DNA from: Spinacia oleracea
Taxonomy: Eukaryota > Streptophyta > Magnoliopsida > Caryophyllales > Amaranthaceae
Direction of reading: 5' to 3'
NCBI RefSeq assembly: GCF_020520425.1
Contig: NC_079492.1
Location: 38,691,542-38,755,541, forward strand
Length of the DNA stretch: 64,000 bases
Numbering within the stretch: position 1 is the stretch's first letter; each line of letters opens with the position of its first letter. The position numbers and the translations under genes are program-made. A model generated the notes under the pieces. That model was not told the DNA's origin, did not search any database, and saw nothing but the letters and a program-made list of their open reading frames with translations. Shown here in pieces: positions 1,251 to 51,832 of the stretch.

Positions 1251-4200
1251 TCACAGAGCCAAAAACCAAGTACAATCCCTTCTACTAACCTTCTTAGGCA
1301 TTACAACTTTGATTCTATCTCTCACAGCATGCTTAATGCTCTTTACAGAATTCTGCACTGTAGGAACATACTTATCCCAAAAGCTACCATTTCTGCACTG
1401 CCAAACTACATAGACAATTGCTGCAAGGCCTGCATACCAGACTTGCTTCTTGAAATGAGAATGCCTGCTATGATCAATCCCCCTTGTGATCTGCTGAAGA
1501 TCAGAAGAAACACCAGGGATACTCATCCAGCTTCTAATATCATTAAGGCATTGCTGACTGTAGGAGCAAGAGAAGAACAAATGATTATGATCCTCATCCT
1601 GTTGTCCACACAATAAACACAGTGGGGACACACTAACACCAATTCTAGCAAGCTTTGCTGTGGTTTGAAGCCTAGCTTGAACAGCCATCCAGCAAATAAA
1701 TCTATGTCTTGGAACATTTAGCCTATTCCAAACTAACATGTCCCAGGTGACCAAAGGTCTAGCCTCAATTAATTTCTCATATACCACTTTAACTGAGTAC
1801 TGAGCAATAGTACTAAACTCATTCTGAGAGTAATATTGCTTTAAAATCTCCTTAGTTTCACAAACTTTCCTCCAATACCAGCTGGCTGAAGCATTAGGCT
1901 GGTAATCCCACCAAACCCCATCTTTAACATATACAGCATTGACCCACTTAATCCAAACATTATCCTGTTTGGAAGCAACAGCCCACACATATTTGCCCAT
2001 CAGTGCAATGTTCCACTTAACAACATCTCTGAAGCCTAAACCACCCTCTTTCTTGTGACAGCAAGACTGTGCCAAAGAGATATTACTTGGTTTTGTGTTG
2101 TAAGCTTTGCCACTCCAAAGAAAAGACCTGCAGATCTTATTAATCTCATATAAAACTTGCTTAGGGAGCACATACACCTGGGCCCAATACATATGCAAAC
2201 TCAATAAGACTGAATTGATCAGTTGCATTCTAGCTGAGTATGAGAGATTCCTGGAGCTCCAAACTTTAATTCTTGCAATCATCTTGTCCACCAACATATC
2301 ACACTGAGCTGTGGTGATTTTCTTAGAACAAATTGGTACCCCTAAGTACTTGAAAGGCAAAACACTTCTGGTAAAACCAGAAACCAATTCTACCCTATTA
2401 ATATCAGAATCAGACATCCCATAGCAATAGATAGAAGATTTCTGTTTGTTAGGCTGTAAACCAGAAGTATCAGAGAATAGCTTGAAAGCCTGTAGCAACA
2501 GATAGATAGAAGCAAAATCACCTTTGCAGCACAAGATCAGATCATCTGCAAAGCAGAGATGAGTGAGCTTTACAGCTTTACACCTTGGATGATACTGGAA
2601 CAAAGGCAGCAAGCTCATGCTGTGCAGAACTCTGGACAAATATTCCATGCAAATGACAAAGAGCAAAGGAGACATGGGATCACCTTGTCTTAGCCCTCTC
2701 TGAGATTTAAAAAACCCATGCATAGTGCCATTGATCATCAAGGAGAACATAGGAGTGGTGACACACTCCATCACAAGATGCACAAAATGTTCAGGGAAAC
2801 CCAATTGCTCCAACATCTCCTGTAAGAAATTCCAATCCACAGTATCATAAGCTTTTTGTAAGTCAATCTTCATTAAGCAACTAGGTTTGACATCCTTCCT
2901 ACCATAATGCTTCACTAAGTCCTGCACCACCATAATGTTATGGACAATGTGCCTTCCATGAACAAAACCACCCTGATTTTCCATGATCAAATCAGGTAAG
3001 ATTTGTCTAAGCCTATTACACAGCACCTTAGTAACACACTTATACAGTGTGTTACAGCAAGAAATGGGTCTAAAATCACTCACTGTATTAGGACATTTAA
3101 TCTTAGGAATAAGAGTGATCACTGTGTGATTAAGCTCTTTCAAAAGCTTCCTTTGCTGTAGAACATCTAAAACAGCAGCCACCACTTCATCACCAACAAT
3201 ACTCCAGGAATCTTTAAAGAAAAAGGTACCAAAACCATCTGGACCTGGAGCTTTAACCCCAGGAATAGAGAACAAAGCCTTCCTTACTTCATCTGCAGTG
3301 TATGGACCATTCAGAATTGCTCTATGTTGATCATTTATGAGAGGACCTAGCTGGACCACTTGACTGAGAACTGCTTTCCTATTGGTCTGAGTAGTACCCA
3401 ATAAGGAAGTATAATACTCCGAGAAAGCCATAGACACCTCAGTAGAATCTTCTTTCCAATTGCCATGCATATCATAAATACTATAAATCTGATTCAGAGT
3501 TCTTCTCTGTCTGATGCTCTGGTGAAAAAGAGTAGTGTTTTCATCACCTGCTTTGAGCCAGTCCATCTTTGCTTTTTGTCTCAAAAAATCCAAATATGCC
3601 TGATGTTTTAATCTATATTCACTGATAGCCTGTAGTTCCAGATCAGCCAAAGTTACATCAGAAGGATTCAGATGCATAGCCTGTTGAGCTGCATTCATAT
3701 CATTAAATGCCTTAATATCTGCAGCCTGAATATCAGAGAAACCCACTCTATTCAGATCCTTCAAAGCACCCTTAACTTGCTTCAATTTGTTAACAACCAC
3801 ATACATCTTTGTGCCATGAAATTGCTTGTTCCATTGATGCTGAATGATAGAGAGAAAATCAGGAGAACTCTTCCACATAGTGAAATATTTAAAAGGCTTC
3901 TTTCCCCCTCCAGTTCTAGGTTAAACAGTAAGAAAACCAGGGGAATGATCAAAAGTGCCCTCATTCATAAAACAAACCTCAGCTGTGGGAAATTGAGTTT
4001 GCCAATTAGAATTTGCCATAATTCTGTCAAGCTTTGAAAATACTCTGGCAGCACCTTGCTGTTTATTATTCCAAGTGTAATAATTCCCCACACTCTTAAT
4101 ATCTTCCATTCCACAGAAATGCATACATTGACATATATCCACAATCTCAGCATTCCTAACAGGAGCCCCAATCTTCTCTTCAGTGGTCATTACACAATTA

Positions 4201-4619
4201 AAATCACCACACATAATCCAAGCATCCTGAGTGTATAAAGCTTTGAGATTACTCCAAAGATCCAATCTCTTATGACTTTCATTGACGTCATAGATGAAAG
4301 TACAATAAAAACTAGAAGAACCACCCACTGGCTTAACCAGACAGTGAATAAGCTGGCTTGTAACTTGTAGAATAGTCACAACAAAACTGCTAGGATTCCA
4401 AGCAAGCACAATCCTACCCCCATCATGATAACTGCTATTACTAGTGAAACACCAATTCAAAAATACTTTTTGGTAAAGATTCCCAAGATTAGGAACCTTC
4501 ACCTTATGCTCCAGAAGTCCTACTAGCCCCACATGGTGTTTGTGAATGAATTGCTTCACTACACCTTGCTTATGAGCTAAATTAAGACCCCTGACATTCC
4601 AAGTTACAATTCTATCCAT
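1251..4619 (-). pseudogene. LINE ORF2: endonuclease plus reverse transcriptase, one stop
   Basis: ORF2 starts MDRIVTWNVRGLN at 4619, the standard opening of the AP-like endonuclease. GDFNCVMTTEEK and FDHSP are the later endonuclease motifs. After a single in-frame TAA at 3921-3923 the same frame continues to 1251. It carries RT motifs: PGPDGF, LIPKIKCPNTVSDFRPISCC, GFVHGRHIVHNI, KIDLQKAYDTVDW, QGDPMSPLLF and the catalytic FADD in LCFADDLIL. The C-terminal zf-RVT region includes CLLCGQQDEDHNHLFFSC. The total of about 1,120 codons is near full length for plant L1. ORF2 mediates nicking and target-primed reverse transcription. Confidence 0.95.
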
Positions 4620-5895
4620 AAGAGTGGGAGGAGTTCCCTCCTCCTAGCTCACCTGCCCCATCTTCAATGTCCACCTCCACTACTACATGTTCAACTTCAC
4701 CAATTTCCTCTTCATTTAACAAATGAAAAGTGTTTTTCAAGTGTGTTGGTGCTGCAATTGAGTTTCTCACCCTGATAGGCCTAAGAGCTTGTTGAAAACC
4801 CTCTTGATCAACTGCAGGAGCTTGCACCATTGGTTTCACTGGCTGCATTGAGTGTTTCTGCACCCAAGCTTTCCTATTACCTTGCCTACATTCAGCATCT
4901 TGGTGTCCCACCATCTTACACACCCCACACTTACTAGGTTTCCATTCATACTTTATGTCTACCTTAATCAATTCACCATGTTCATCCATGAAAGAAACTT
5001 GATCAGGCAAACTGTGAGTAATAGGCATGTCCACTAAAACCCTAGCAAAGTGAAACTTATCCCTATTAGTAGTGGCAGAATCTCTTTTCACAGGTTTCCC
5101 TATTTGATTCACAATTTTGAAGAGTGCCTTTTCCCCCCAATATTTGATATTAAGTTTTAATTGGATCCATATAGGAACAGACCTAATCTCCTCCTTCTCC
5201 ATGTCCATATCTACACTCCATGGCTTCATGATCAATGGTTTACCATCAAAGAAAAAGTGTCATGTTAACACCTTATCCCTCATGTCCATGGTGTGAAATC
5301 GAACTAGGAACATCCCTTTTTTCACCATGACTACCTTATCAAGCTTGTGATTCTTCCATATTCGTCTAACAAAACCCTCCATAACATGAGCAGGTGGATT
5401 AGCACCAACAACATAGCACAAAATAGCAGAATTCCAGAATTCTATTTCTTCCTGAATGTCATCCAAATCAATCTGAATATGGTCTAGATTTTCAACCGAT
5501 TTATTCGAAACTGATTTATCAGATATGCTACCAACTTCATCATTATTATGCACAGATATCTCATCCAATTGCTGCAAAATAGGGACAGAAATTGTACCTA
5601 CATCCATGTTTGCTCTGTTTTGACGCACCAACTCAGAAGAATGGTGAATCTCCTGCATCCACTCATTGAATGAGTGTCGCACCTCTGATCTCAGTTGAAG
5701 ATGTTGCACACTTGATTTCGGAGTGAGAATTTCATTCTCCATTCCAAAATCCAGTGCCTCCACGCCTAATAGTTCCTCAATCGGACGCGTTCTGAGAGCC
5801 TGCGAATCCGATGAAGGTCCACGAGGCTTCGTCGTCACATTTCCATGAGAATTATGCTTGCTACCTTGCCCTTTGCCCCCAGTTTTTCGTGCCAT
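4612..5895 (-). pseudogene. LINE ORF1 (nucleic-acid-binding, zinc knuckle), one stop
   Basis: The frame starts MARKTGGKGQGSKHN at 5895 and ends at 4612. The N-terminal 200 residues are polar. A DUF4283-type region follows (FVRRIWKNHKLDKVVMVKKG), and a CCHC zinc knuckle (CGVCKMVGHQDAEC) lies near the C-terminal third. A TGA at 5260-5262 interrupts the frame after KVLT, and translation on both sides stays in the same frame. Plant L1 ORF1 proteins bind the element RNA during target-primed reverse transcription; that role is inferred from the family. The last codons overlap the ORF2 start. Confidence 0.88.
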
Positions 5896-6104
5896 GGCAA
5901 CGGAGCACGATAAGGCTATCGTGCACCGAGAGAAAGCTTGGGGAGATCAATGATTTGTTTGTATTCGAGTAGCCAACACTATCTCTCTCTTCCTTTCTCT
6001 CTCTCTCTCTTCCTTTCTCTCTTATCTCTCTAACTATTTTATTGTATTTTATTCAATTCTCTCTCTTGAACACCAAAAATTGGTGTTTGATAAACATGAT
6101 CTAA

Positions 6105-7827: not shown

Positions 7828-8000
7828 TAATTATTTTTTTGGTGTTACTATCCGGTTCACCCTTATGGCTAATCCGGATTCAGGACGAGTTTTGGGTGGA
7901 TAGGTTTCAATCCCCTCCCAATTGTTGTTTCGGGGAATCGAACACGGGGTCCTCCTTACCAAATTCAACCCCAATCACCACTGAACCAATATACAATTGG
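7828..8000 (-). mobile_element. tRNA-derived SINE, second copy, inverted
   Basis: The reverse complement matches the SINE at 7501: TTGGTTCAGTGGTGATTGGG, then GTGTTCGATTCC, then GAATCCGGATTAGCCATAAG. The A-rich tail is at the low-coordinate end. The target duplication TATATTCATAAT lies at 7816-7827 and 8001-8012. The pair, only 155 bp apart and head-to-head in sequence similarity, could fold as a hairpin in a read-through RNA. Confidence 0.85.
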
Positions 8001-8528: not shown

Positions 8529-9224
8529 TATCCCAGTTCCCCACTCCTCGAGTCCTCGTACTATTTATTAGGCATCCATTTCTTAATACTCGGAGAACGT
8601 TCATATTCATATTACACTTCCAAAAATACTCATTACTCACAAAAGAGGAGAGATAGGAGAGAGAGAATAACAGCAAAATCTGCAAATCGTGAGATGTTGA
8701 ATGATGATGACATGATGAGTGATGTTTGGGGAGGCCCTCTTTGAACTCCCCAAGTTTTAACTGCTTTTGTTGCTGCTGATTTCTGGGATTAATTTTTAGG
8801 AAAAAGTGTTGATTGTGGGAAATTATATGGGCAACAAGATAAATTATCTGGGTTTCTTTCAATCAATCAGCTTTTTCTGGGAATTCTTTTAGCATCAATT
8901 GTCACTCTTTTAATTGGTCCTCCTGTGAAAGTTAAACTGGTAAATTTCTGAATTTCTTTAAAAAGTTCAGTTCTTTCCTTTTTATTTTCTTTCTGTTGTT
9001 GTGTGAATTTCATGAAAATAAGATGTGGGCATAATGGTTTGTATTCATTGTTTTGGGTATTTTTCACTTCTAGTTTAATTTATACTTGAATTTGCGAGGT
9101 TTCTATGGAGATTTTCGGTTTTCTGCAAAGCCCCAAACAAAATGGAACAAAAGGTATAGTTTTGTTTTTGTAGTATAGGCCGCCTCCAAGGGCACTAATG
9201 TAGATGGGATTTGATCCCGGGTTT

Positions 9225-9368
9225 TGGGTAAATGGTATTATTCCCGACTTTAACTAACTAAGCTAGTTGGCATTATAGAGTATTATTTCCGACTTTAACT
9301 GACTAAGCTAGTTGGCATTATAGAGTATTATTTCCGACTTTAACTAACTAAACTAGTTGGCACTATAA
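9225..9368. repeat. 45-bp tandem repeat, three copies, in PHO2 intron 1
   Basis: Three consecutive copies of a unit containing TATTTCCGACTTTAACT and AAGCTAGTTGGCATTATAG differ at a few positions. No function is apparent. Confidence 0.8.
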
Positions 9369-9980
9369 TCCTTTAGTTCTGTTGATTCAGATAGTGGGAA
9401 GTTGGTAGGCTTTTAGAAATTTTGTTTAATTGAATAAAGGCCTAATTTTGTTTGCAGCATATAATTTTGGAAAGCAAGCTACTTTATTCTGGGTTTTGGT
9501 TGTTAATCTTCCTTTAACTTGTGTTCATACATATGAAAACCTCAAAAAGCATAATAAATTCAACATTCTTATACACTAAATATTTGCTTAAGTCCTATTA
9601 CACTTTTATTGAATTCTGATTAGGTGCTGTTTGGCTGAGTTATATTGGCAACGTTCGAGTTTAAGCAGCATATTTCTTGTTAACATATGTCCTGGAACGT
9701 GAATCAATTTGTGTAAATTGCAAATCTAACTTGTAGTTTGAATTTCTTATGAACAATGAAAGGTAAATTTTATTTGTGCAAACAAAGTAGTTTTCAACTT
9801 TTCAAGATATGGGTGGAATAGGTGTGATCAATATGCTACTTTTTTTTAAAGATTCTTTCTAGCTAGCAACTGAATCTGATAGATTTGTGGTAATAACTAA
9901 GAAATAATGTTTTGACAGGTGAATGGATATTTTTATCTAGCTCCTGTGGCTGTTCTATTAAGGGCTAGTTAAAGTGTTCA

Positions 9981-10073
9981 ATGTTCAAGCTTTCAAGCAT
10001 CAGTGAATTAGTCTACAGGGAAAAGGCGCGGTTGTTATTCAGGCTTCTCATCAGTTTAGGAAAGTGGTTGTGA
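9981..10073 (+). other. Upstream ORF of 30 codons in the PHO2 leader
   Basis: ATG at 9981 opens MFKLSSISELVYREK and closes with TGA at 10071-10073, just before the first miR399 site. A 5-codon uORF (ATGGATATTTTTATCTAG) precedes it in the same exon. Translation is not shown by the sequence. Confidence 0.45.
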
Positions 10074-10106
10074 GCAGATCATCTGCATAAGTGTTGAATC
10101 CCTTTC

Positions 10107-10127
10107 GGGGGCAAATCTCCTTTGGCA
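10107..10127 (+). promoter_or_regulatory. miR399 target site 1
   Basis: GGGCAAATCTCCTTTGGCA is a 19/19 complement of positions 1-19 of miR399 (UGCCAAAGGAGAUUUGCCC). Known biology: phosphate-starvation-induced miR399 cleaves PHO2 mRNA in its 5' UTR. Confidence 0.93.
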
Positions 10128-10191
10128 ATATAGTTCTGGTTTTTAACCAGAACATCAATATCATTATATTTATCCGACGATTCAGCCTCTC

Positions 10192-10212
10192 ACGGGCAAA
10201 TCTCCTTTGGCA
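10192..10212 (+). promoter_or_regulatory. miR399 target site 2
   Basis: The 19-nt core is identical to site 1. It lies 85 bp downstream of site 1 in different surrounding sequence. Confidence 0.93.
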
Positions 10213-10296
10213 ATATAAACTGTGTTTTGAAAGAAGCTATATTCTTTCAGCATAGATTTATACAAATATATACAAAACCTACTTTACTTAGCTCTT

Positions 10297-10317
10297 TAGG
10301 GCAAATCTCCTTTGGCA
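10297..10317 (+). promoter_or_regulatory. miR399 target site 3
   Basis: The 19-nt core is identical to site 1. It lies 105 bp after site 2, with unrelated flanks. Confidence 0.93.
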
Positions 10318-10422
10318 AAATAGTATTCACAATTCAGCTGAGTGACTCTTCGCAAGAGAGGTTATCATCTGTTGGCTAGTGACTGTTACTCCTATCTGTT
10401 TGCTTGTCGCCTATCCCGGCTA

Positions 10423-10443
10423 TAGGGCAAATCTCCTTTGGCA
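10423..10443 (+). promoter_or_regulatory. miR399 target site 4
   Basis: The 19-nt core is identical. This is the first of four sites carried on a 38-bp tandem repeat. Confidence 0.93.
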
Positions 10444-10460
10444 ATATTCAGTCCAATTTG

Positions 10461-10481
10461 TTGGGCAAATCTCCTTTGGCA
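10461..10481 (+). promoter_or_regulatory. miR399 target site 5
   Basis: The 19-nt core is identical. It lies exactly 38 bp after site 4, with the shared spacer AATATTCAGTCCAATTTGTT. Confidence 0.93.
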
Positions 10482-10498
10482 ATATTCAGTCCAATTTG

Positions 10499-10519
10499 TT
10501 GGGCAAATCTCCTTTGGCA
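10499..10519 (+). promoter_or_regulatory. miR399 target site 6
   Basis: The 19-nt core is identical. It lies 38 bp after site 5 in the same tandem unit. Confidence 0.93.
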
Positions 10520-10537
10520 ATATTCAGTCCAATTTTG

Positions 10538-10558
10538 TTGGGCAAATCTCCTTTGGCA
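10538..10558 (+). promoter_or_regulatory. miR399 target site 7
   Basis: The 19-nt core is identical. It lies 39 bp after site 6, because the spacer has one extra T. Confidence 0.93.
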
Positions 10559-10590
10559 GCTAGAGTCATAAACTGACTCTCATTATCTTC

Positions 10591-10611
10591 AAGGACAAAT
10601 CTCCTTTGGCA
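10591..10611 (+). promoter_or_regulatory. miR399 target site 8 (one mismatch)
   Basis: The core reads GGACAAATCTCCTTTGGCA, with one mismatch to miR399 near the miRNA 3' end, where mismatches are usually tolerated. It is the last site before the second leader intron. Confidence 0.85.
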
Positions 10612-10940
10612 TTCTATCTCCAGTTGGAGATACTAATCTATCCCTCGCTCTCCACAGTGGAAGTAAATCCACTAGAACTTACTGTCATCAGGTTACTGCA
10701 GGGAATTCAAATTATTTTCACAGTTTATTAAGCCAATCGTGGTTACTGAATTAGAAGGTATGTCTCTCTCACTAATATCTTTTGTAATTTCTCTCTTGTT
10801 AAGCCTATATGAAATTGTCGGAGGATAAAATTGTTTTTTTTCTCAATAATGTGCACCTACTGAAGTACTAAGTGAGAAATTTGTGTTGTAAATCTTGTTA
10901 TTGTATAATTTTTCTTTTCATGTTTCCAGCTCCTGTATTG

Positions 10941-11006
10941 ATGTGTTTTAATTTTATACAACGTACATACAGAAACAAGGATCATGACAATGGAAATGTT
11001 TGGTGA
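10941..11006 (+). other. Upstream ORF overlapping the PHO2 start codon
   Basis: ATG at 10941 opens MCFNFIQRTYRNKDHDNGNVW and stops with TGA at 11004-11006. It runs past the main start (ATG at 10984, with in-frame ATGs at 10990 and 10996) in another frame. If the leader is spliced as inferred, ribosomes must bypass it by leaky scanning. No expression evidence is available. Confidence 0.5.
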
Positions 11007-14000
11007 TTCTGATGTTGAGAGTTTCAGTGAGACCAGCAGTGATGATCAAGATGATATCTTTTCCATCTATGGCGGACATGCTCAGAGTATCTTGTCTAAT
11101 CTTGAGGACAGCATAGAAAAAATAGATGATTTCCTGTCATTTGAGAGAGGGTTCTCGCATGGTGATATCGTACGCTCCACAGGAAATCCATCTGGACAAA
11201 TGGGTAAAATAGTGAATATCAGAATGTCAGTTGATCTTGAAAATGTTTTCGGTGAAGTCAGAAAAGATGTCAATACTGAAAAACTATTGAAGATGAGATC
11301 CTTGTTGGTTGGGGATTATGTGATTCACGGTCCATGGCTTGGAAGAGTGGAGAAAGTGGTTGACAATGTTGGTATTATATTTGATGATGGAACAAAGTGT
11401 GAAATCTTGGCAACTGACCAAGCACAGTTGTTGCCACTTTCTCCCAATTTACTCGATGATTCACTTTATCCCTATCACCCTGGACAAAGAGTAAGAGTTA
11501 GTAATCCTATGGGGTTAAAATCTGCTGGATGGTTATGCAGGATGTCCAAAAAGAATCAACACGAGGGAACTGTGTTTTCTGTTGATGTGGGACTTGCATA
11601 CATTGACTGGATTTCCTCTGCTATAATTGGTGTTTGCATGACCTTACCGCCTCCAACCCGTTTGCAAGACCCGAAAAACTTGACAATGTTATCGCACATC
11701 TCTCATGCTGACTGGCAACTTGGTGACTGGTGTGTCCTTCCACCAGAAACTGGATTGCAAAGAAGGGACTTGAATTCAAATTTTGATGAGATTTTTTCAA
11801 TTGGAAAGAAAAAAATCAAAGTTGATATCATGTGGCAAGATGGTAGTTGCTCGATGGGGCTAGATTCATATACTATCTTCCCAGTATGTGTTTTGAATGC
11901 GCATGATTTTTTCCCTGAACAGTTTGTTTTGGAGAAAAACAGTTCTGATGATCTGGTTGCTCCAGTAAGTCAAAGATGGGGAGTTGTTCGATGTGTGGAC
12001 GCAAATGAGAGGACTGTGAAAGTGAAATGGGAAAGTACCGACGGTGTTACTATAGGTGTAAATGAGTGGAAAATGGAGGAGACTGTGAGCGCTTACGAAT
12101 TGGTTGAGCACCCTGATTTCTCCTTTAACATTGGTGACATTGTGTTCATGTCAGATAAGAACCATTTTTCTGACCAGTTGAACAAAATGAGTATGGAGGA
12201 TTGCACTACATTCGGAAGTGAGAATTGTAATGCTTATTTGAGTGAAACCCAGAAGAAACATTTCTTGTCCTGTATCGGCTATGTTGTTGGCTTCAAAAAT
12301 GGAGATATTGAGGTGGAATGGGCTAGTGGAGTCTCAACAAAGGTATGAACTCCTTACGAGTTTTGTAATGTTTATTTTGTTTTCTTTCTAGTGCTGATTT
12401 CGTATGGGAGTGTATTTCGGTTTATGTCTGTAATTGCTTTCTACTAGAAATCCTATTGTTATAGAAGTTGTGGGGAATGGTGATTTGAAGCTGGTCCATA
12501 AAATTATATGTACTGTATATTGCATTATTGCATGTAGAGAGTTAAAAAATGATGTGAAATTATTGCAGATATAGGTCCTTATACTTCATAACTATTAAAC
12601 AGAGTATATGTAGATTCCAAGCCTGTTATCAGTATCACTTTCACAATGGTCTGTAAATAACTAAACAGAAAATGACAACACCTTATGTTTTGGAAAAAAC
12701 AAAGTCTAGTCAGTATTAATCAACCCGTTTGTGCTTACATACTTGAAGATTTCAATGATTTTTGTAAATTTTGTATATTTCTGCTGGTTATGTGATTTTC
12801 AGGTGTCTTCAAACATATTGGGAGATACTAATATATGATTAAAGGGCAAGTTAATTAATGTAGCAGACACTTTTAAGAAGTACATATACAAGGGCAAGTT
12901 CTCCGCTATCATTTCATGTGTTTGGCATACCTTGTTAAACTTTTTGTTGTTGTTGTTGTTAGGTTGCTCCTTACAAGATACTATGCATGGAAAAGGATGA
13001 TGGATCAGTTGCAACTCATCTTTTCCAAGAAAGAAATGTTTCTGAATCCAGTGATGAGATGGCTAACTATGAGATACAATCTGCGAACCATCAGGTGAAC
13101 TCTTCTGTCCCCCTCCTATCAGTACTTAGATGTGTTTGCTTTTCTCTGTGATGCTCCGGCTAAAATATCAAAATTTCATCAACCTTATGACTCTTAGTTC
13201 TAAACAGGCTCCTACATAGGCGGGTAGCGTAGGCCAGATATGTCAAACCCTTGATCAAAACTCCGATGAGCATCGTTTGCTTTCACATTAAATAAGAACC
13301 CGTAGATAATTTTAATGAGCTATTTCATTTAGTTCTCTATAATCCAAAGCCAAAGAATAACATGTCTGTTTGACTGCATTGTAAGTGGATTGTATGCTCT
13401 GTCTATACGCAAAGGTAAGTTATGAACTCAAATTATTTTATTTGTAAAAAAACATTACCAGAAAAAGGAGAAACTTTATGAGTTTCTTATATTAGGAAAA
13501 AAATACACGAGTATTGATTATTTTCAACAAAGTAATTGCTGATAAAAAACAGAAAGCAAGCATATGTCTCCTATGGGAATGCAGTTATTCTCCTCCCGTT
13601 TTATATACAGCTCTGCAGACCTATTTGTTTTCACTCTTCAGTTTCTTCCCTTCTTCTGTATGATTTTTATCCGTTGCTAACCTCTCGAGATCACCCTGCT
13701 TTTGTTGAGGCTGAACCGATGAAACTTCCCTCTTCCCCAAGTCTTATTCTGATATTCATTTTTTTTCCTAACGGGGATGCTTAATTCATGTTTACTGGCA
13801 TCCTAATGGGGACGGTTTCACATTTTCCCCATATTTTTTTCCTGTATAAGCTGATGTTATGCATTTAATTGCACTTGTAAAGAAAAAGTCCATGACCTAC
13901 ACTAAAACCAAATTTAATGATTCAAAACTTGTCTATGTTCAGGAGTCATCAGACAGTTCTGGTATCACTGCTGTAAACTGTCAAAGCGACCATAGAAGTT

Positions 14001-16055
14001 CTCATTTCTTCAGCCTTTCTCAAGCTGCTATGGGATTCTTTTCTAGTATTGCTGTGAATTTCTTCAGATCACATGATTCGTCGTTCCTACCACAACACAT
14101 CTCATGTGCCCATATAATTGACGAAAGCAAAATTGGAAGTTTTTGCGAGGAAAATATTGTCAAATCTTGTGATATGTACCCAGATATCCACTCTGTGGAA
14201 TTCAGTGACTTTGATGCTTATGGTAGCATGAATCTGAAGGACAAAGTTGAAAAGAACTCAGAGAATATTGAACTACTGCCTGTAGCTAAAACAAAAGGCT
14301 TAAAACAGTTTAAACAGTTCGACATTGTGGATGATTGCTCTGACCATCACTTTGCTGCTGCTGCTGATGGCAAGGGATCAGCATTGTCTCAGGCAAGGAT
14401 CTTTTCCTAGAAGCTTAAGTAGTTATCTTATTACCAGGAAAGGCGAGGTTAAGTAATCATGTTTTCTACTGCTTTTTGCAGATGAGAAAAGGTTGGTTGA
14501 AGAAGATTCAGCAGGAATGGAGCATTCTAGAGAAAGACCTTCCAGGTAAGACCGTAATCATAGAATTTAATTTTCTTATATTTGTGTAACATATGTACAA
14601 TCTTCGTGTCCTAGTCCTGTACTAATAACATTCGTTTTACCAAAACAGAAACAATTTACGTTCGTATTTACGAGGAAAGAATGGATTTGCTTCGTGTAGC
14701 CATTGTTGGTGCTCTTGGGACTCCCTACCATGATGGCCTTTTCTTCTTTGATATACAGTTTCCCCCTGATTATCCTCATGTACCCCCTGTAAGTGTTCAC
14801 TTCTCCTTTCTTTAATTTAAAATACTGGCACATGTTTCTGTGTTCATGTGTTTCTTTGCACTCTAAGCGTAGAAAAGGCGATAAGGTCGAAGCCAACAAT
14901 GTTTATGCAAATTTAAGTGATACTCTCTACGCCCCTTATTGTTTGCCCCATGCTCTGAAAGTGCTTTATTAAGAGTTGGTTGTGTGAATTTGAGAAGAAA
15001 TAAATATGGTGGCACCAAATGTTTTTATGTGAGAGTAAAGTGGTGGTCCCTATGAGCATTTATAGTAACGGGACAATCTTTTAGGGACTGACTAAAACGG
15101 AAAATGAGGCAAACAAATAGGGACAGAGAGGGAGTATGAAACTATTGGGTGTGACCGTGGCACCATGCAACAAGATACGCCTGACCAGCAAACGGAATTG
15201 TGAAATTGACATTTAATGCTAAATTTCAGTAAATGACATAATGGAAATCTGATACAACATTGTGTTGTGTATTTTGACACAGATGGTGCATTACCATTCT
15301 GGTGGTTTACGTCTGAATCCAAACCTTTACGAGTCAGGAAAGGTGTGTCTCAGCCTCCTCAACACGTGGACTGGCACAGGATCTGAAGTGTGGAATCCAG
15401 GAAGCTCGACTATTCTTCAAGTCCTCCTCTCTCTTCAGGCCCTTGTCCTTAATGAAAAACCCTATTTTAATGAGGCAGGCTATGATGAACAGATAGGTGG
15501 AGCTGAGGGAGAGAAGAACTCTGTCAGCTACAACGAAAGTGCTTACCTGGGTACTTGCAAATCTATGCTATACCAATTGCGAAAGCCACTCAAGGTATGA
15601 TATGCTGATTTGTTCAGAACTTCTGAGTTGCAAGTTTCTCGTTGCATCCTTATATTTAACCTCAACATTATGAATCTCCTCAAAATTTGCTTGCAAAGAT
15701 GAACTTTTATGCATGTCTCTCGAATCTGATTTGATTTTGTATGTTAATATTTGAATTTTTCATCCCAATGATATATTTTTATTCCGAGAAGTCGATACAT
15801 GATTGTTTTACTACAATTGTGCAGCATTTTGATGAGCTGGTGGAGGAGCACTTTGAAAGACGTTATCAGCATATTCTATCAGCTTGCAAGGCTTATATGG
15901 AGGGGGCACATATTGGTTTCTGTACCAAAGTTGATCATGAAAAGGGAAACTCCATGGGTTTCAAGATTATGCTAGCTAAGCTCTTTCCCAAACTTGTGCA
16001 AGCCTTTTCTGACAAAGGAATCGATTGCAGCCACTTTCTCGAGTCAGAGAAATGA
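10984..16055 (+). CDS. PHO2: PHO2-type ubiquitin-conjugating enzyme E2 (UBC24)
   Basis: The spliced product is about 895 residues, close to Arabidopsis PHO2 (907). Exons inferred from frame and splice signals are 10984-12342, 12963-13094, 13943-14392, 14482-14545, 14649-14788, 15283-15594 and 15825-16055. The N-terminal half has the PHO2-specific region (FLSFERGFSHGDIVRS, LLVGDYVIHGPWLGRVEK, WQLGDWCVLPP). The UBC fold spans roughly residues 645-830 (ERMDLLRVAIVGALGTPYHD, VHYHSGGLRLNPNLY), and the catalytic Cys in GKVCLSLLNTW is near residue 737. PHO2 ubiquitinates phosphate transporters and PHO1 at endomembranes to restrain phosphate uptake and loading. Intron 14393-14481 appears to use a GC donor. 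The eight leader miR399 sites strongly support orthology. Splicing is predicted, not observed. Confidence 0.95.
14393..14481 (+). other. PHO2 intron with GC-AG splice sites
   Basis: The exon ends CTCAG and the intron starts GCAAGG, then ends TTTTTGCAG before ATGAGAAAAGG. Joining here keeps the frame (ALSQ then MRKGWLKKIQ) and matches the PHO2 family sequence. CAG followed by GCAAG is the typical strong context for rare GC donors. Confidence 0.75.
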
Positions 16056-17689: not shown

Positions 17690-19800
17690 TGAGTAAAAGT
17701 TAAGAAACTTAAATGTGAATCTTGCATTCTTTTTATTTCACACATTGTACATTTCTGTGTTAAAGTTGTGGTTCGATAGGTTAAAGTTATGGAAATTGTT
17801 TTAAAAGTTAAGACAGTCTTCCGTCGTCTCAAACCTAACTTTTACTTTTATTAACTTTAACTGCTAAAAGTCTGACTTTTATGTTTCTACCTTTTTTCCG
17901 CTAATGCGAGTCCGTCAATCTTTCTATTGTACACATTGTAGTTTTATGTGTATTTAGTTGTAGTTCTGCATGTTAATGTTATGAAAATTGTTCTAAAAGT
18001 TAAGACAGTCTTCCGTCATCTCAAACCTAACTTTTACTTTTAATAACTTAACTTTAACTGCTAAAAGTCTGACTTTTATATTTTTACCTTTCTTCAGCTA
18101 ATGTGAGTCGTGCATTCTTTTTATTTCACACATTGTACTTTTTTGTGTTAAAGTTGTAGTTTCATAGGTTAAAGTTATGGAAATTGTTCTCAAAGTTAAG
18201 GCAGTCTTCCGTCATCTCAAACCTAACTTTTACTTTTATTAACTTAACTTTAACTTCTAAAAGTCTGACTTTTATATTTCTATTTTTCTTCCGCTAATGT
18301 GAGTCCGTCAATCTTTTTATTGTACACATTGTAGTTTTATGTGAAAACTTTCAAATTCAGAGAAACCCTGGATACTGACGAACCATTTCAATAGTACGGG
18401 TGTTGCCGTGCCACAAGGTGTATTTAGTTATAGTTCTGTATGTTAAAGTTATGAAAATTGTTCTAAAAGTTAAGACAGTCTTCCGTCATCTCAAACCTAA
18501 CTTTTACTTTTAATAACTTAACTTTAACTGCTAAAAGCCTGACTTTTATATTTTTACCTTTCTTCAGCTAATGTGAGTCGTGCATTCTTTTTATTTCACA
18601 CATTGTACTTTTCTGTGCTAAAGTTGTAGTTTCATAGGTTAAAGTTATGGAAATTGTTCTAAAAGTTAAGGCAGTCTTCCGTCATCTCAAACCTAACTTT
18701 TAATTTTAATAACTTAACTTTAACTGCTAAAAGTTTGACTTTTATATTTTTACCTTTTCTTCAGCTAATGTGAGTCATGCATTATTTTTATTTTCACACA
18801 TTGTACTTTTCAGTGTTAAAGTTGTAATTTTATAGGTTAATGTTATGGAAATTGTTATAAGTTAAGAAAAGTTTTGTACCAGTCTACCCAATATGCAAAT
18901 GTTTGAACACTAAGGCTATTAGCTCAAATAGTAGAGCAATGTGCATTTATGTACATGGTATGGGTTCAAGTCCCATATAGCCTACATACTATTGGGTTGT
19001 GTTTTGATATATTGTGAAACGACTATCAAACCTAACTTTTACTTTTAATAACTTAACTTTAACTGCTGAAAGTCTGACTTTTATATTTTTACCTTTCTTC
19101 CGCTAATGTGAGTCGTGCATTCTTTTTATTTCACACATTGTACTTTTCTGTGTTAAAGTTGTAGTTTCATAGGTTAAAGTTATGGAAATTGTTCTAAAAG
19201 TTAAGGCAGTCTTCCGTCATCTCAAACCTAACTTTTACTTTTAATAACTTAACTTTAACTGCTAAAAGCCTGACTTTTATATTTTTACCTTTCTTTAGCT
19301 AATGTGAGTCGTGCATTCTTTTTATTTCACACATTGTACTTTTTTGTGTTAAAGTTGTAGTTTTCTAGGTTAAAGTTATGGAAATTGTTCTAAAAGTTAA
19401 GGCAGTCGTCCATCATCTCAAACCTAACTTTTACTTTTAATAACTTAACTTTAACTGCTAAAAGTCTGACTTTTATATTTTTACCTTTCTTGGGCTAATG
19501 TGAGTCGTGCATTCTTTTTATTTCACACATTGTATTTTTCTGTGTTAAAGTTGTAGTTTCATAGGTTAAAGTTATGGAAATTGTTCTAAAAGTTAAGACA
19601 GTCTTCCGTCATCTCAAACCTAACTTTTACTTTTATTAACTTAACTTGAACTACTAAAAGTCTGACTTTTATATTTCTAGCTTTATTCCGCTAATGTGAG
19701 TCTGTCAATCTTTTTATTGTACACATTGTAGTTTTATGTGTATTTAGTTGTAGTTCTGTATGTTAAAGTTATGAAAATTGTTCTAAAAGTTAAGAGCCTA
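17690..19800. repeat. ~195-bp tandem array, about 11 units
   Basis: The landmark CACACATTGTA/TACACATTGTAG recurs about every 190-200 bp. Each unit also carries GTTAAAGTTATGGAAATTG, CAGTCTTCCGTCATCTCAAA and CTAAAAGTCTGACTTTTAT. The array is interrupted near 18345-18420 and 18850-19020. It is noncoding. Confidence 0.9.
18914..18982 (+). other. tRNA-like module
   Basis: A 69-nt segment opens GGCTATT and closes ATAGCC, which pair as an acceptor stem. It has a D-arm-like CTCA...GAGC and a perfect T-arm (ATGGG-TTCAAGT-CCCAT). The anticodon arm has only a 6-nt loop and the D-loop lacks GG, so a working tRNA is doubtful. It interrupts the tandem array. Confidence 0.45.
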
Positions 19801-19835
19801 ACTTTAATTTCTGAAGTTTCATAATAAAACAAATA

Positions 19836-19904
19836 GCCTATGTAGGATTTGAACCCACATCTCCGCGCAAGTTGCACGGTGCTCGCCCAGTTGAGCTAAT
19901 AGGC
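19836..19904 (-). other. tRNA-like module, opposite strand
   Basis: Read on the minus strand, GCCTATT...ATAGGC forms an acceptor stem, CTCA/GAGC a D-stem, CCGTG/CGCGG an anticodon stem and GTGGG-TTCAAAT-CCTAC a T-arm. The anticodon loop CAACTTG lacks the invariant U33, so function is unlikely. It shares TATTAGCTCAA with the module at 18914 and sits at the end of the tandem array. Confidence 0.45.
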
Positions 19905-20303
19905 TTTAAAAAAATTTGGTATAAAAAATTATGAGATACAATACCTATGTAAACCATCTCCCATATATGCATCAAGTGATGAAATCACTAGTGGTAGATG
20001 CTGTAACACCCTAAGCAATTCAGAATAAAAATTTGAGCTCAGGCTTGCAACACTTGCAAAGAATAGGTAACCACAGTGCTAACAACAGTAGGATAAAACC
20101 AATTCAAATCGGACTCTCAGAAAGACATAGATCAGAACAAGGAGCAAAGTGTATTCAACATATGAGGTCAATTCACAGGTACAAAAATATCTCCTACACA
20201 GCACCACTAACATCATGAAATCCATTTGAAGGAAACAACTGATTCAAGCCTTTTAAACAAGAGCCAACGTTGAACTTAAACTCAATTTGCTGTAATTACA
20301 AGC

Positions 20304-20551: not shown

Positions 20552-21922
20552 GTCCTCGACCTCAAAATCAATAGCAAGCAAAGAGGTATCCATGTTTAAG
20601 TGGATATCCAGAAGTAGCATCTCAATGAGAAAGCACTAAACTGATTTATGCCTATACATTCTGTGATACTTTCTAAAATAAAACTACTCTCTTTCTCACT
20701 AGTCACTGTCATCTAAAAACCTAATCGCCGGTTCACCAATCAATAATACCCTGCTACAATTCCTGCAACAGGCACCCCAAGACACACAAATACACAATAA
20801 GCCAGAAGGGCCAGAAGGGGGGAACGAGGAAGAGAACAAATAATCAAAACAATCCTATTTACAATATGTCAACTACCATAGGAGCGATAACCATACCCAC
20901 CTAAATCACACCCTCGCCACCAAAAGACCCTGATGCACATTGCAGCCCAGAGTGCACCTCTTAACTCCACCAGTCCGTGATGCTATGATCCCATATATCA
21001 TTGCCCCACCCAGGGGAAGATAAGATATTGAAAAATCCCTAATTACGTGATTGTTAAACTAACATATTTTTCAGCCACTTCTCCAATGCTAAACAGGGTA
21101 TTAAATCCAATTTCAAACCAATTTCAATTAGAACGATGACATCCGCCAATAGAGACAAAATCAAGCTCAATAAATTGACCTTAAGAATGGCAAGAACAAC
21201 AGAGCAGAATCAAGACAACAACTACTTAGAAAATCAATCAAAATCAAATCAACTAGGCATAAGAATAGATCAACAATTTGTTACTATCAATCTATCAAAA
21301 CAATAAATAAATCCAAACATTTTGATTGTATAATTGTATACCTAAATTGCTCAATCTATAAAAAACTAAATTCAAAGAGGTTGAATACATACCTGATACC
21401 TACACCATGATCCTCTACGAATTGGAGCGAAGGTCAAGCACATGAGGGATTCAAGCTCCAATTCCGATCGCGATCTATGCGTTTTCTCCTTTCTCCCCTT
21501 TCTTCTCTGCGTTTTTCTGTCTTTCTCTCTCCTCTGGTTTTTGCTGGGTTTTTTTTAATTTCTTTCTCCTCTAGTTGTTTGGGAGGTAACTATGAAATCA
21601 GATTGCGTGGAAGAATTTGCATATTCCGCAGCTGTCTAACTTTCACACGTGTGGAAGTTTAGTGTACGTTAATATTAACGTATACCTGTTGCGCGCAAGA
21701 TCGATTGAACACAATATACCTCAAAATTACGCAAAACAAAATCAAATCGTAACTCATTCGGATCAAGAAGAACCTCATTTTACCTTTATGAACAACTCGT
21801 TTGCCACCTATCCATATTAAAATATCTTCCCGGTAAAATTATAAAAAAAACAATAGAATGTGTATAAGCCAGATCGCCTGATGCGTGAATCAGATTCTTG
21901 TTTTTCTCACTCCAACAAAACA

Positions 21923-24745
21923 ATGGACACTCCTCCCTTCTTCTTCTTCTTCTTCCTCAGGAGGGTTTATTTCACCAGTTTCTCTCTCCTCATTCTCACT
22001 CTCATCTCAACCTTCATCACCCAAACCACCTCTCGCGAAATCCTCCCTTCTTCTTTCCGCACAGACAATCTCCCCCAAATTCCTTACTCTCCACACTGCG
22101 GTCAACTCATCCCTGAGTCAACGCCAACTCACCCTCACTTCACCGCCCAAGTACCCACCTTCTACTCCGCCTACGTCACCAATGGCGACCAATTCCTGGG
22201 TACCACTTCCCAGATCACCGCAAATCTCATCCCTCAGACCGTTTCCAAAACCTCCTCATCTGGGGTTTTCAAAATTCAATCCGTCTTGACTATCAGGATC
22301 AATTGGTCTCGGTTTCGTAACCAGAGGAACTTGCTCAGCGTTCATGGAGGCCCGAGGTTTCGAGGTTCCCGGAGGAATATGAGGTTTCAGCTCTCTGGGT
22401 TTTGGGATTCAGCTTCTGGACAGCTTTGTATGGTGGGATCAAGCACAAAGCGTGTGATTGGTGGTAATTCTTTGCATTTTGATGCTGTTTTTAAGTCTCA
22501 ATATCCTAATAGTACTGTTATTAATACTAGCTTGATTACTGGAACTCTTGAGAGCTTGGATTCTGAGGGTAGTGATGTTTATTTTAAGCCGATTTCGATT
22601 ATGAGTTTTGCTAAGATGAACTATGGTTATACATTGATTAAGGATGAAATGGCTGAAGGTGATGTTGATGATAGTGTTAATAATAGTAGTAATAACAATG
22701 ATAATAGTTTGGTAAATGGGGTGAGTAAGTTAGGGAATTGTTATCAATTTGCAAGCTTAGAGGAGAATTTTGAGTTGGAGTATAATTGTGATGATGGTAG
22801 GAATTGTACTTGGATTGATAGGATTCTTGGGTTCTTGCCTAAGTTCATGTCATTAAATGAAATTGATTGTTCCGGGCAAAGGAGGGTTCGGGTTTCATTT
22901 GGTTTTTCGAATGTTAGTGATATTCGGAATGGTTATCGCCAACCATTGGATCCTAGTAGGACATTGGTTGCTGAGGGATTATGGAATATAGGCAAGGGTC
23001 AGCTTTTCTTTGCTGCTTGCCGGATTTTGAATTTCACGAAAGATCCATTGAATGCTACAATTGGTGATTGCTCAGTTAGGGTGAATTTTACATTTGCTGA
23101 TACTTTGTCCATTAGAGATTCGGGTGTGATTACTGGGGATATTTGGAGCACCAAGAGTGTTGATGAACCGGATTACTTTGATAGAATTGAAATTAGTGCT
23201 TCTGGGTCTAGGAGAGCAGCACTTCCAGACATGAAATACAAGTATACTGAAATTGACAGAGCGAAGAAATTTTGTACAGAAAAGAAAGACAGTAAGAAAA
23301 AAGGAAAGAGTTTCCCTGATCCCTATTCCCAAGATATGAAATTTGACATGGAAGTGAAAAACAGCAAGGGTATACGAGCCTGGGGCAAGGCCTATCCCGT
23401 GTATGTTGGTGATCGTTTTGTGCAGAATATTTATCCATATTTCCATTCTCGCCTAGTTCCAACTCCAAACTCTGCTGGTAATAATAGTTACCATGGCTTT
23501 CTAAATGTTTCCTATCGGATAATGTTTTCTCCTAAAGCTGAATTTAAGGTGGGTGGTAGGTTATTCACTGTGAATGATACAATACGCATATCTGCTGAAG
23601 GTATTTATGATACTGATGCGGGACGCCTTTGTATGGTTGGCTGTTGGAAACTTAAAAATGATGTCAGTGCTGCACTAAATGCCAGTAAACTAGACTGTGA
23701 TACTTTTATCAACATTCAGTTTCCTCCACGTGATTCGAATGTTAAAGATGTCGCCAAGGGGAGTATTGAAAGCAAACGTAAAAACTCAGATCCATTTTAC
23801 TTTGACCATCTTGATTTTACTGCAACTTCACTCACAAAGTTCCAAGTAAAAAGTGCATTTTGGAGGATGGATTTTGAGATCGCGTTGGTTTTGATTTCCA
23901 ACACTCTAGCATGCGTCTTTGTGGGATTGCAGCTATTCCACGTGAAAAGGAATCCAAACACCCTTCCATTCATTTCAGTTGTAATGCTCGTTGTAATCAC
24001 CTTGGGACATCTTATTCCCTTGGTTTTGAATATGGAAGCATTTTTCTTGTCAAGTACTAGCAAGAGAACTGTACTTGTTGGAAGTGGTGGATGGCTCGAG
24101 GTGAATGAAGTTTTAGTCAGGGTTATAACCATGGTAGCATTTCTTCTGGAGTTCCGTCTCCTACAATTGACATGGTCCGCAAGAGGTGGTGGTGAAGAAG
24201 ATAGCCAGAAAACCTTATGGGAAACTGAAAAGAAAGTAATATGTTACACTTTGCCTTTATATGCAGTAGGGGCTCTGATTGCTTGGCTTATACAGTTACT
24301 AAGGAGTAGACCTACAATGCCATTCCAGCCTAGTAGCTACATAAACTCAAACCCTTCTCTTCCATTCTGGCGTGATATGAAGTCATATGCTGGTTTCATT
24401 CTGGATGGCTTTCTTCTTCCTCAGATAATCTTCAATGTATTCTCTGATTCGAAAGAGAGGGCTCTTGCTGTTCCATACTATCTCGGAACTACAGTTGTTC
24501 GACTGTTGCCACATGCTTATGATTTGTTCAGGGCTCATAGTTCGTCATGGAGCTTTGACCCGTGGTATATATATGCAGACCCAAGAATGAATTTTTATTC
24601 CACTACATGGGATATCCTTGTTACGTGTCTTGGACTGCTGTTTGTCGTTCTTATCTTCTTGCAGCAGTGGCTTGGTGGAAGGTGGGTTATTCCGACGCGA
24701 TTTAGCAAGACCGTTCAATATGAAAAAGTCCCCGTAGGACTATAG
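21923..24745 (+). CDS. DUF2921 family integral membrane protein, intronless
   Basis: The protein is 940 residues from the ATG at 21923; the frame is open upstream to 21860, but the ATG at 21923 directly precedes a signal-anchor-like segment (VYFTSFSLLILTLISTFIT). The extracytoplasmic part has three related modules marked by SGFWDSASGQLCMVGSS, AEGLWNIGKGQLFFAACRI and AEGIYDTDAGRLCMVGCW, and several N-glycosylation sequons. The C-terminal ~270 residues contain about six hydrophobic helices (FEIALVLISNTLACVFVGL, ISVVMLVVITLGHLIPLVL, VITMVAFLLEFRLLQ and others). The family includes FLY1/FLY2 E3 ligases, but no RING domain is present here, so a ligase role is not supported. Biochemical function is unknown. 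Confidence 0.9.
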   Translation: MDTPPFFFFFFLRRVYFTSFSLLILTLISTFITQTTSREILPSSFRTDNLPQIPYSPHCGQLIPESTPTHPHFTAQVPTFYSAYVTNGDQFLGTTSQITANLIPQTVSKTSSSGVFKIQSVLTIRINWSRFRNQRNLLSVHGGPRFRGSRRNMRFQLSGFWDSASGQLCMVGSSTKRVIGGNSLHFDAVFKSQYPNSTVINTSLITGTLESLDSEGSDVYFKPISIMSFAKMNYGYTLIKDEMAEGDVDDSVNNSSNNNDNSLVNGVSKLGNCYQFASLEENFELEYNCDDGRNCTWIDRILGFLPKFMSLNEIDCSGQRRVRVSFGFSNVSDIRNGYRQPLDPSRTLVAEGLWNIGKGQLFFAACRILNFTKDPLNATIGDCSVRVNFTFADTLSIRDSGVITGDIWSTKSVDEPDYFDRIEISASGSRRAALPDMKYKYTEIDRAKKFCTEKKDSKKKGKSFPDPYSQDMKFDMEVKNSKGIRAWGKAYPVYVGDRFVQNIYPYFHSRLVPTPNSAGNNSYHGFLNVSYRIMFSPKAEFKVGGRLFTVNDTIRISAEGIYDTDAGRLCMVGCWKLKNDVSAALNASKLDCDTFINIQFPPRDSNVKDVAKGSIESKRKNSDPFYFDHLDFTATSLTKFQVKSAFWRMDFEIALVLISNTLACVFVGLQLFHVKRNPNTLPFISVVMLVVITLGHLIPLVLNMEAFFLSSTSKRTVLVGSGGWLEVNEVLVRVITMVAFLLEFRLLQLTWSARGGGEEDSQKTLWETEKKVICYTLPLYAVGALIAWLIQLLRSRPTMPFQPSSYINSNPSLPFWRDMKSYAGFILDGFLLPQIIFNVFSDSKERALAVPYYLGTTVVRLLPHAYDLFRAHSSSWSFDPWYIYADPRMNFYSTTWDILVTCLGLLFVVLIFLQQWLGGRWVIPTRFSKTVQYEKVPVGL

Positions 24746-26675: not shown

Positions 26676-28143
26676 GACTAGAGGAAAAAACTTGATAAGT
26701 TGCTCTTAAAAGTGGCTTATAAGTTGCCCTTCGTAAGTGCCACCAATGGGGGGGGTCACTTTTGTAAAATTATCAAAAGGTGCCCTTAACAAAGGCAACT
26801 TATAATCTTATAAGGTGCCCTTGTTTGCAACAAGGGCACCTTATGTGAAACTTATAAGGTGCCCTTGTTGCAAACAAGAGCACCTTATGTGAAACTTATA
26901 AGTTGCCCTTGTTGCAAACAAAGGCACCTTATAAGCTGCACATAAGTTGCTCTTGTTGCAAACAAGGGCAACTTTTGAGTTTTTTTTTTTTTTTAAAAAA
27001 AAAAAAATCTGCAATATAATTCCTAATATTCTGCAATATAATTTCTGATTTTGCAATATAATTTCTGTTCATCAAACATCAGCTTGACATTCTCAAAAAT
27101 GATATAAATTTCAAATTTCCAATAATATTACCGAATTAATTTAAATGTAATTAATTAAATCGATAAATAACAAAATAATGTAAGAGTCACGAATAACTAC
27201 AAGCCTTCTCCATTTATTACACTGAGGGTAGTTCACAATCGTTGAAGTAAGTAGCCCACTTGTCTCGAACTTCATCCAACTCCTTTTTGGTAAAGGGCCC
27301 CTCCCTTGGAGTTTTGAAAACCTTTAAAAGAACACCGTACATGCAAACCAATAAATTAAATTAAGTTTCATATGCGAAAACAAAAATTATATTGGACGCG
27401 AAAACAATTATCACTAGAGGAAAAAACTTGATAAGTTGCTCTTAAAAGTGGCTTATAAGTTGCCCTTCGTAAGTGCCACCAATGGGGGGGGTCACTTTTG
27501 TAAAATTATCAAAAGGTGCCCTTAACAAGGTCAACTTATAATCTTATAAGGTGCCCTTGTTTGCAACAAGGGCACCTTATGTGAAACTTATAAGTTGCCC
27601 TTGTTGCAACAAGGGCAACTTATAAGCTTTACATAAGTTGCCCTTGTTGCAAACAAGGGCACCTTATAAGCTGCACATAAGTTGCTCTTGTTGCAAACAA
27701 GGGCAACTTTTGAGTTTTATTTTTTTTAAAAAAAAATCTACAATATAATTCCTAATATTCTGCAATATAATTTCTGATTTTGCAATATAATTTCAGTTTC
27801 ATCAAACATCAGCTTGACATTCTCAAAAATGATATAAATTTCAAATTTCCAATAATATTACCGAATTAATTCAAATGTAATTAATTAAATTGATAAATAA
27901 CAAAATAATGTAATAGTCACGAATAACTACAAGCCTGCTCTATTTATTACACTGAGGGTAGTTCACAATCGTTGAAGTAAATAGCCCACTTGTCTCGAAC
28001 TTCATCCAACTCCTTTTCGGTAAAGGGCCTCTACCTTGGAGTTTTGAAAACCTTTAAAAGAACACCGTACATGCAAACCAATAAATTAAATTAAGTTTCA
28101 TATGCGAAAACAAAAATTATATTGGTCGCGAAAACAATTATAT
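26676..28143. repeat. Tandemly duplicated CACTA terminus (two ~736-bp copies)
   Basis: Copy 1 is 26676-27411 and copy 2 starts at 27412 with an intact CACTAGAGG. Both carry the TIR, the AAGTTGCCC palindromes and the stretch ending CATATGCGAAAACAAAAATT. The copies are highly similar. Confidence 0.92.
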
Positions 28144-51723: not shown

Positions 51724-51832
51724 GGAAGATCTGCCATGGAAGAGAGAGAAGGCAATCTCGAATTCCCGATACCAAAATTAAATTAAGCCAAACATAACCT
51801 AAAGTAAAAATTGAATTATTTGGCGCTATTTG

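Follow-up and report, generated by a model that had tools for sequence, protein, structure and literature searches.

PHO2 is a plant gene that limits phosphate uptake, and its loss-of-function phenotype, over-accumulation of phosphate in shoots, is a criterion of the PHO2/UBC24 class. Targets of miR399 are recognized by their near-perfect complementarity to the miRNA, with miRNA positions 2-13 paired, and by cut ends between positions 10 and 11 under low phosphate. A leader with more sites is a natural dose series for asking why PHO2 keeps several miR399 sites though one cut suffices.

According to the published excerpts, five miR399 sites are present in the PHO2 leaders of Arabidopsis, rice, common bean and poplar as well as in those of three Medicago and three wheat genes, five or six, depending on the source, are given for barley, and four for N. 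benthamiana. Cleavage is confirmed in these excerpts at just two sites each in barley and N. benthamiana, and one perfectly matched barley site is among those not confirmed as cut; for soybean one cut position is reported, and structure probing has been done around one PHO2 site region of rice.

Structures adjacent to miRNA sites have been described in other transcripts as well. PMC6508833 states that structure flanking the miR159 site is needed to silence MYB33 (Zheng et al. 2017, cited in PMC6508833), that the miR399 site of IPS1 has a predicted stem-loop next to it, on whose necessity results are mixed, and that the stem-loop studied in that paper has no simple relation to efficacy. The Target Adjacent nucleotide Motif (PMC7470952) consists of two unpaired bases 3' of the site.

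Here we describe a putative PHO2 leader found in a window of 64 kb (the window is the whole stretch of DNA that was analysed). It differs from the PHO2 leaders known from the published excerpts in having eight sites, half of which form a 38/39-bp tandem array, and seven identical cores. The remaining organization is familiar from the same partial accounts: the sites lie in the second exon as in PHO2 of wheat, barley and bean, two leader exons precede the coding exons as in wheat and bean, and the exon number of nine equals that of Arabidopsis and bean, whereas wheat and barley have ten. An earlier note on this DNA had set its eight sites against five in Arabidopsis PHO2, and the latter number agrees with the counts in these excerpts. 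Among the literature matches listed there is no PHO2 leader with seven or eight miR399 sites, nor any report of stem-loops or of start-codon absence around PHO2 sites. Eight is the highest count found in these partial sources, which is no proof of a record. We consider it likely that the locus represents a miR399-sliced PHO2 leader with an array-expanded set of sites. The site number is modestly unusual and its origin is simple; the more interesting part is the predicted architecture of the leader, as judged from one sequence and from tests framed after looking at it.

Gene identity and exon structure

Seven joined coding exons, from 10984 to 16055, yield an open frame of 895 amino acids. The Pfam search placed UBE2O tSH3-B (E=9.9e-35) and UBE2O SH3-B above the cut-off and SH3-C barely above it (21.3 versus 21 bits), and located the C-terminal ubiquitin-conjugating domain UQ_con at residues 656-786 (E=1.5e-23). 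The best relatives of the 895-aa protein among PDB sequences are UBE2O chains (E=1.4e-73). The UBE2O-type domains, the UQ_con domain and the UBE2O structural relatives all uphold the identification as PHO2 made in the earlier note, and the combination of UBE2O-type SH3 domains, an E2 domain and two leader exons with the sites in the second leads us to take the gene as PHO2/UBC24. The gene model comprises nine exons, two of which are leader exons:

8600..8939, plus strand: leader exon 1; donor GT at 8940; start guessed
9919..10757, plus strand: leader exon 2, with all eight sites; acceptor TTTTGACAG/G, donor AAG/GTATGT
10973..12342, plus strand: exon 3, with 11 nt of leader followed by the start codon at 10984 and the first coding exon
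12963..16055, plus strand: span of the further six coding exons (12963-13094, 13943-14392, 14482-14545, 14649-14788, 15283-15594, 15825-16055)

The exon 1 start at 8600 is a guess, set 38 nt past a TATA-like TATTTAT at 8562. The third coding exon of the model ends at 14392 and is followed by a GC instead of a GT donor. Intron 1 contains a 45-bp tandem repeat at 9235-9367 (3 copies, 94% matches). P1BS-type elements (GNATATNC) at 8000 and 8521 were dismissed, as a rough estimate gives about this number by chance in 3.3 kb of AT-rich sequence.

miR399 sites in the leader

The search was done with a 19-nt pattern having N at position 13, with at most three mismatches, on both strands of the 64-kb window. 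Eight matches were obtained and all of them lie within the PHO2 leader at 10109-10611. Seven are exact copies of the core GGGCAAATCTCCTTTGGCA and one is a copy with a single mismatch:

10109..10127, plus strand: miR399 site 1, exact core, pattern search
10194..10212, plus strand: miR399 site 2, exact core, pattern search
10299..10317, plus strand: miR399 site 3, exact core, pattern search
10425..10443, plus strand: miR399 site 4, exact core, first site of the array
10463..10481, plus strand: miR399 site 5, exact core, inside the array
10501..10519, plus strand: miR399 site 6, exact core, inside the array
10540..10558, plus strand: miR399 site 7, exact core, last site of the array
10593..10611, plus strand: miR399 site 8, GGACAAAT..., one mismatch, facing miRNA position 17

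This is exactly what the earlier note had read by eye, namely seven perfect cores and one with a single mismatch within 505 bp; its span of 10107-10611 is correct too, because site 1 in its 21-nt version starts at 10107. Since none of 100 dinucleotide-preserving shuffles contained a match to the pattern, a chance origin of the sites was rejected. Outside 10109-10611 neither strand of the 64 kb has a further match with up to three mismatches, which speaks against a MIR399 gene or a target mimic in the window; as to the former, Rfam at gathering scores gave one snoRNA and two tRNAs only.

For the pairing we used what we take to be the Arabidopsis forms of the miR399 isoforms. Sites 1-7 pair faultlessly with miR399 a, d and f over positions 1-19, miR399e has a wobble at position 19, and miR399b/c have a mismatch at position 13, which is their one mismatch within positions 2-13. 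Positions 2-13 of isoforms a, d, e and f are fully paired at all eight sites. The sites cannot be read as target mimics, as they have no central bulge. One would argue that the leader serves mainly as a miR399 sponge or is translationally repressed with little cutting, and translational repression of PHO2 has been suggested in published excerpts. However, the lack of an IPS1-type central bulge and the pairing at positions 10-11 make us regard this as quite improbable, and slicing is preferred.

Origin of the site array

Sites 4-7 belong to one tandem array, not mentioned in the earlier note, with a period of 38, 3.5 copies and 98% matches:

10425..10558, plus strand: 38/39-bp tandem array, (site + ATATTCAGTCCAATTT(T)GTT) x3 + site

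The array is 134 bp in full length; there is no difference between its units 1 and 2, and unit 3 has an additional T. There is a site at both of its ends, and the outer flanks are dissimilar. Since four of the eight sites are parts of one array, the eight do not represent eight independent gains, and arrays with such borders require two ancestral sites about 38 nt apart. The sequence is best read as a history of six sites plus two recent array copies. A history of five plus three was rejected, because an array that is bounded by sites and has dissimilar outer flanks does not result when a unit with only one site is simply duplicated. The near-identity of the array units is explained equally well by recent origin and by conversion. 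Tandem repeats abound in the window (86 rows in the repeat list), thus the expansion of the array needs no special cause. As the duplication looks recent, the copy number is likely to vary within the species.

The copy number could also be wrong due to an assembly error, as short perfect repeats may be mis-sized in short-read assemblies. We find this highly improbable, since the whole array, with its 134 bp, is roughly as long as a typical short read and unit 3 is marked by its own extra T.

Start codon depletion of the site exon

The exon at 9919-10757, on whose presence in the PHO2 message the earlier note depended, behaves as a spliced 5' leader according to its AG/GT limits and the near absence of ATG. 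The latter is seen in the following tract:

9984..10757, plus strand: ATG-free leader tract, still free of ATG across the 11 nt of leader in exon 3, up to the main start codon at 10984

The gap between the ATGs at 9981 and 10760 is the longest on either strand of the window, the next-longest gaps being 483 nt on the plus strand and 450 nt on the minus strand. The tract owes its sharp 3' end in part to the splice signal, because the ATG at 10760 belongs to the GTATGT donor (third intron base). The spliced leader from 10002 to the main start has no ATG, with 11.3 expected (0 of 2000 shuffles). When the sites and the redundant array copies are removed, the remaining 583 nt still have none, with 7.1 expected (1 of 5000 and 0 of 3000 shuffles), and ATG is the most depleted of all 64 trinucleotides there; TAA (7 versus 13.7) and GTA (2 versus 7.2) are low as well. 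CAT occurs in exon 2 at 14.3 per kb, similarly to its neighbours (9-16), and the density of ATG is 15 per kb in intron 1 and 23 per kb in intron 2. Upstream of the tract, eight ATGs with short uORFs lie inside exon 1 (with its guessed start); together with the first 65 nt of exon 2 this makes ten upstream ATGs, and all ten predicted frames stop before site 1. The ATG depletion is sequence evidence which suggests that the site exon has been kept as a leader.

The same exon structure allows for a message free of sites. Skipping of exon 2 would drop all eight sites, which are confined to this one non-coding exon, and would keep the reading frame; the exon 1-exon 3 splice would leave a leader of 351 nt (with the guessed start), and a shorter site-free form of PHO2 is mentioned for Arabidopsis in a passage citing Scheible et al. 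2023. We nevertheless consider it unlikely that such an isoform dominates, as the depletion of ATG in exon 2 points to a long-standing leader.

Predicted structure and openness of the sites

Stem-loops are predicted just 3' of four sites:

10133..10153, plus strand: stem-loop after site 1, perfect 9-bp stem, 3-nt loop, gap of 5 nt between site and stem
10214..10262, plus strand: stem-loop after site 2, bulged stem from 1 nt past the site, perfect 8-bp core at 10228-10249
10562..10580, plus strand: stem-loop after site 7, perfect 7-bp stem, gap of 3 nt between site and stem
10615..10632, plus strand: stem-loop after site 8, perfect 7-8-bp stem, gap of 3 nt between site and stem

In folds of the isolated spacers, the structures begin 5, 1, 3 and 3 nt past sites 1, 2, 7 and 8, respectively, and the perfect core of the second one lies 15 nt past its site. 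The stem thresholds were picked after the folds had been inspected, and the tests of stem-loops and of openness are post hoc. Four stems of at least 7 were counted in 581 bp, with 0.28 in shuffles (0 of 1000); 108 other tiles of the window have a mean of 0.77, and three of them reach four. The threshold of at least 6 gives five stems versus 0.94 (1 of 1000 shuffles; reached by 8 of 108 tiles), and that of at least 8 gives three versus 0.06 (0 of 1000 shuffles; 2 of 108 tiles). Five segments outside the array were tested, namely four spacers and the sequence downstream of site 8, which was cut at 10680 by choice. The longest stem exceeds those of the shuffles in four of the five (p 0.0005, 0.02, 0.01 and 0.003, with post hoc thresholds), and in the spacer between sites 3 and 4 it is no longer than in shuffles (p 0.40). 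Structure of the array spacer is not claimed, as 50 of 200 shuffles fold equally well.

Local folding of the exon predicts that the seed-facing ends of the sites are 3-5 times as open as in shuffled or grafted contexts. The mean open probability of the segment facing miRNA positions 2-8 is 0.101 in the wider folding window, versus 0.033 with shuffled spacers, and 0.224 versus 0.071 in the narrower one (0 of 300 shuffles in both cases). The eight sites grafted into 250 window segments of similar GC content reach 0.025 and 0.048 (0 of 250 each). Openness of the whole site is a weaker signal, being reached by 2 and 17 of 300 shuffles and by 6 and 16 of 250 grafts; the mean unpairedness of the sites is reached by 5 and 3 of 300 shuffles. 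Taken one by one, sites 2, 4, 5 and 6 show a clear seed-facing gain in both folding windows, sites 1 and 7 show it in the narrow one only, and sites 3 and 8 show it in neither; the predicted openness of the seed-facing segment peaks at sites 5 and 6.

Of the four sites that precede a stem-loop, there is a gain in both windows at site 2, in the narrow window at sites 1 and 7 and in neither at site 8. Since sites 4-6 gain without a significant stem-loop and site 8 does not gain with one, the openness does not track the stem-loops. These predictions suggest that the spacers as a whole favour open sites. That the stem-loops are responsible cannot be shown, and a role of theirs in keeping the sites open is a conjecture. 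The likeness to MYB33 and IPS1, as those are portrayed in excerpts, is a predicted stem-loop near a miRNA site which is proposed to keep the flanks from pairing with the site. The differences are that here such predicted structures follow four of the eight sites of a single leader and that predicted openness does not go along with them. Similarly, the 1-5 unpaired bases before the stem-loops of sites 1, 2, 7 and 8 (spacers folded alone) resemble the Target Adjacent nucleotide Motif. However, when the eight sites are taken together, the openness of the two nucleotides that follow the site is significant in the narrower window only (2 of 300 shuffles; 6 of 250 grafts) and non-significant in the wider one (48 of 300 shuffles; 44 of 250 grafts), and it falls below the shuffles at site 2 (wider window) and at site 3.

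Proposed mechanism and modelled effect of site number

We propose that under low phosphate AGO1-miR399 slicing would repress the PHO2/UBC24 message via its 5' leader. Any of the eight near-identical sites could be cut, between the target bases facing miRNA positions 10 and 11, and one cut would remove the cap side and thereby destroy the message. The number of sites would have risen from about six to eight by slippage, or by unequal exchange involving two adjacent sites with a spacing of 38/39 nt. The inter-site sequence would leave the seed-facing end of most sites unpaired, and the ATG-free tract would keep translating ribosomes off the sites, as the predicted uORFs terminate before site 1. 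Because of the unpaired seed ends and the exclusion of ribosomes from the tract, we propose that the sites may work as near-independent units; the stem-loops directly downstream of four sites may contribute to this independence. The analysis shows the sites, the gene identity, the array and the ATG depletion, along with the predicted stem-loops and the predicted openness; cleavage, folding in the cell and the effect of site number are what we infer. Eight sites need not mean eight working ones, because in barley and N. benthamiana two sites each are reported as cut in the published excerpts.

The effect of site number was calculated with a dose model in which either independent cuts or titration of RISC is assumed; the parameters, including four sets for titration, are our own choice. 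With independent cuts, the half-dose is 0.202 for five sites, 0.169 for six and 0.127 for eight, and the Hill slope is constant at 1.0 from five to eight sites. With titration, the change from five to eight sites raises the Hill slope from 1.83 to 1.92, from 2.01 to 2.03 and from 1.30 to 1.47 in three sets, the fourth set giving no slope as its repression never amounts to 10%. The corresponding half-doses are 0.105 and 0.103, 0.101 and 0.101, and 0.142 and 0.126, and the floor is lowered from 0.038 to 0.024. The earlier suggestion that more sites make repression steeper is hardly supported, given a slope of 1.0 with independent cuts and a slight rise with titration. The companion suggestion of more robust repression survives in the form of the lower floor in the model (0.038 to 0.024). 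The safest claim in the model is that more sites would make repression more complete; that they would make it more sensitive holds for independent cuts only, and the case for steeper repression is weak.

These small shifts bear on the possibility that the two extra array copies are neutral minisatellite passengers, that five or six sites already saturate the response and that the number drifts, to which we give an even chance. The array units are almost identical and tandem repeats are abundant (86 rows, including the 45-bp repeat in intron 1 of PHO2); the modeled gain from six to eight sites is small with independent cuts (half-dose of 0.169 to 0.127), and the titration shift is about nil in two sets out of the three in which half repression is attained. 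On the other side, an intact site is present in each unit without any substitution among the three, though youth explains this identity equally well, and it is at sites 5 and 6 that the seed-facing segment is predicted to be most open.

It might also be that multiple hits trigger RDR6-dependent secondary siRNAs, so that the extra sites would amplify silencing instead of adding cuts. The two-hit rule of TAS3 counts for this. In published excerpts, antisense small RNAs occur at the PHO2 sites of phosphate-starved barley, some of which could be miR399 itself, and silencing of a PHO2-leader reporter by exogenous miR399 requires RDR6 and AGO1. The miR399 length of 21 nt stands against it, and we judge amplification to be improbable.

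Beyond the slicing of an array-expanded leader, one may speculate that the leader is a modular miRNA sensor: each module would combine a site with a short unpaired stretch and a spacer that folds on itself, within an ATG-purged tract, one unit would spread as a 38/39-bp minisatellite, and the repeat number would be a heritable dial of phosphate sensitivity that varies between individuals. We hold this to be doubtful. If the spacer structure and the ATG-free tract do matter, they could help to account for the cutting of some matched sites but not of others, which excerpts on barley indicate, and would offer a rule for tuning phosphate uptake.

Surrounding sequence

Upstream of PHO2, a LINE-like element occupies 1251-5946 on the minus strand, with reverse transcriptase and zf-RVT domains in the frame at 1251-3920. 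Downstream, a DUF2921 membrane protein is encoded at 21857-24745 (plus strand). Two oppositely oriented tRNA genes, at 18913-18984 (plus strand) and 19834-19905 (minus strand), lie between and directly behind stretches of a tandem repeat with a period of 196 bp. Palindromic repeats of 44 bp occur in two blocks, at 26807-26974 and 27524-27709, and form perfect stems of 16-19 bp, which are the longest among the stems listed. A Copia-type polyprotein lies at 40839-43061, with another frame to 44387, and on either side of it there are very similar CGGAAA-rich repeat arrays (36778-37006 and 45618-45849), perhaps inside the two LTRs of the Copia element. A C/D box snoRNA of the J33 family was found at 61064-61143 (minus strand). 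Finally, a DYW-type PPR protein is encoded at 49966-51777 (minus strand); a similar PPR gene presumably adjoins Arabidopsis PHO2, which would be a case of conserved gene order.
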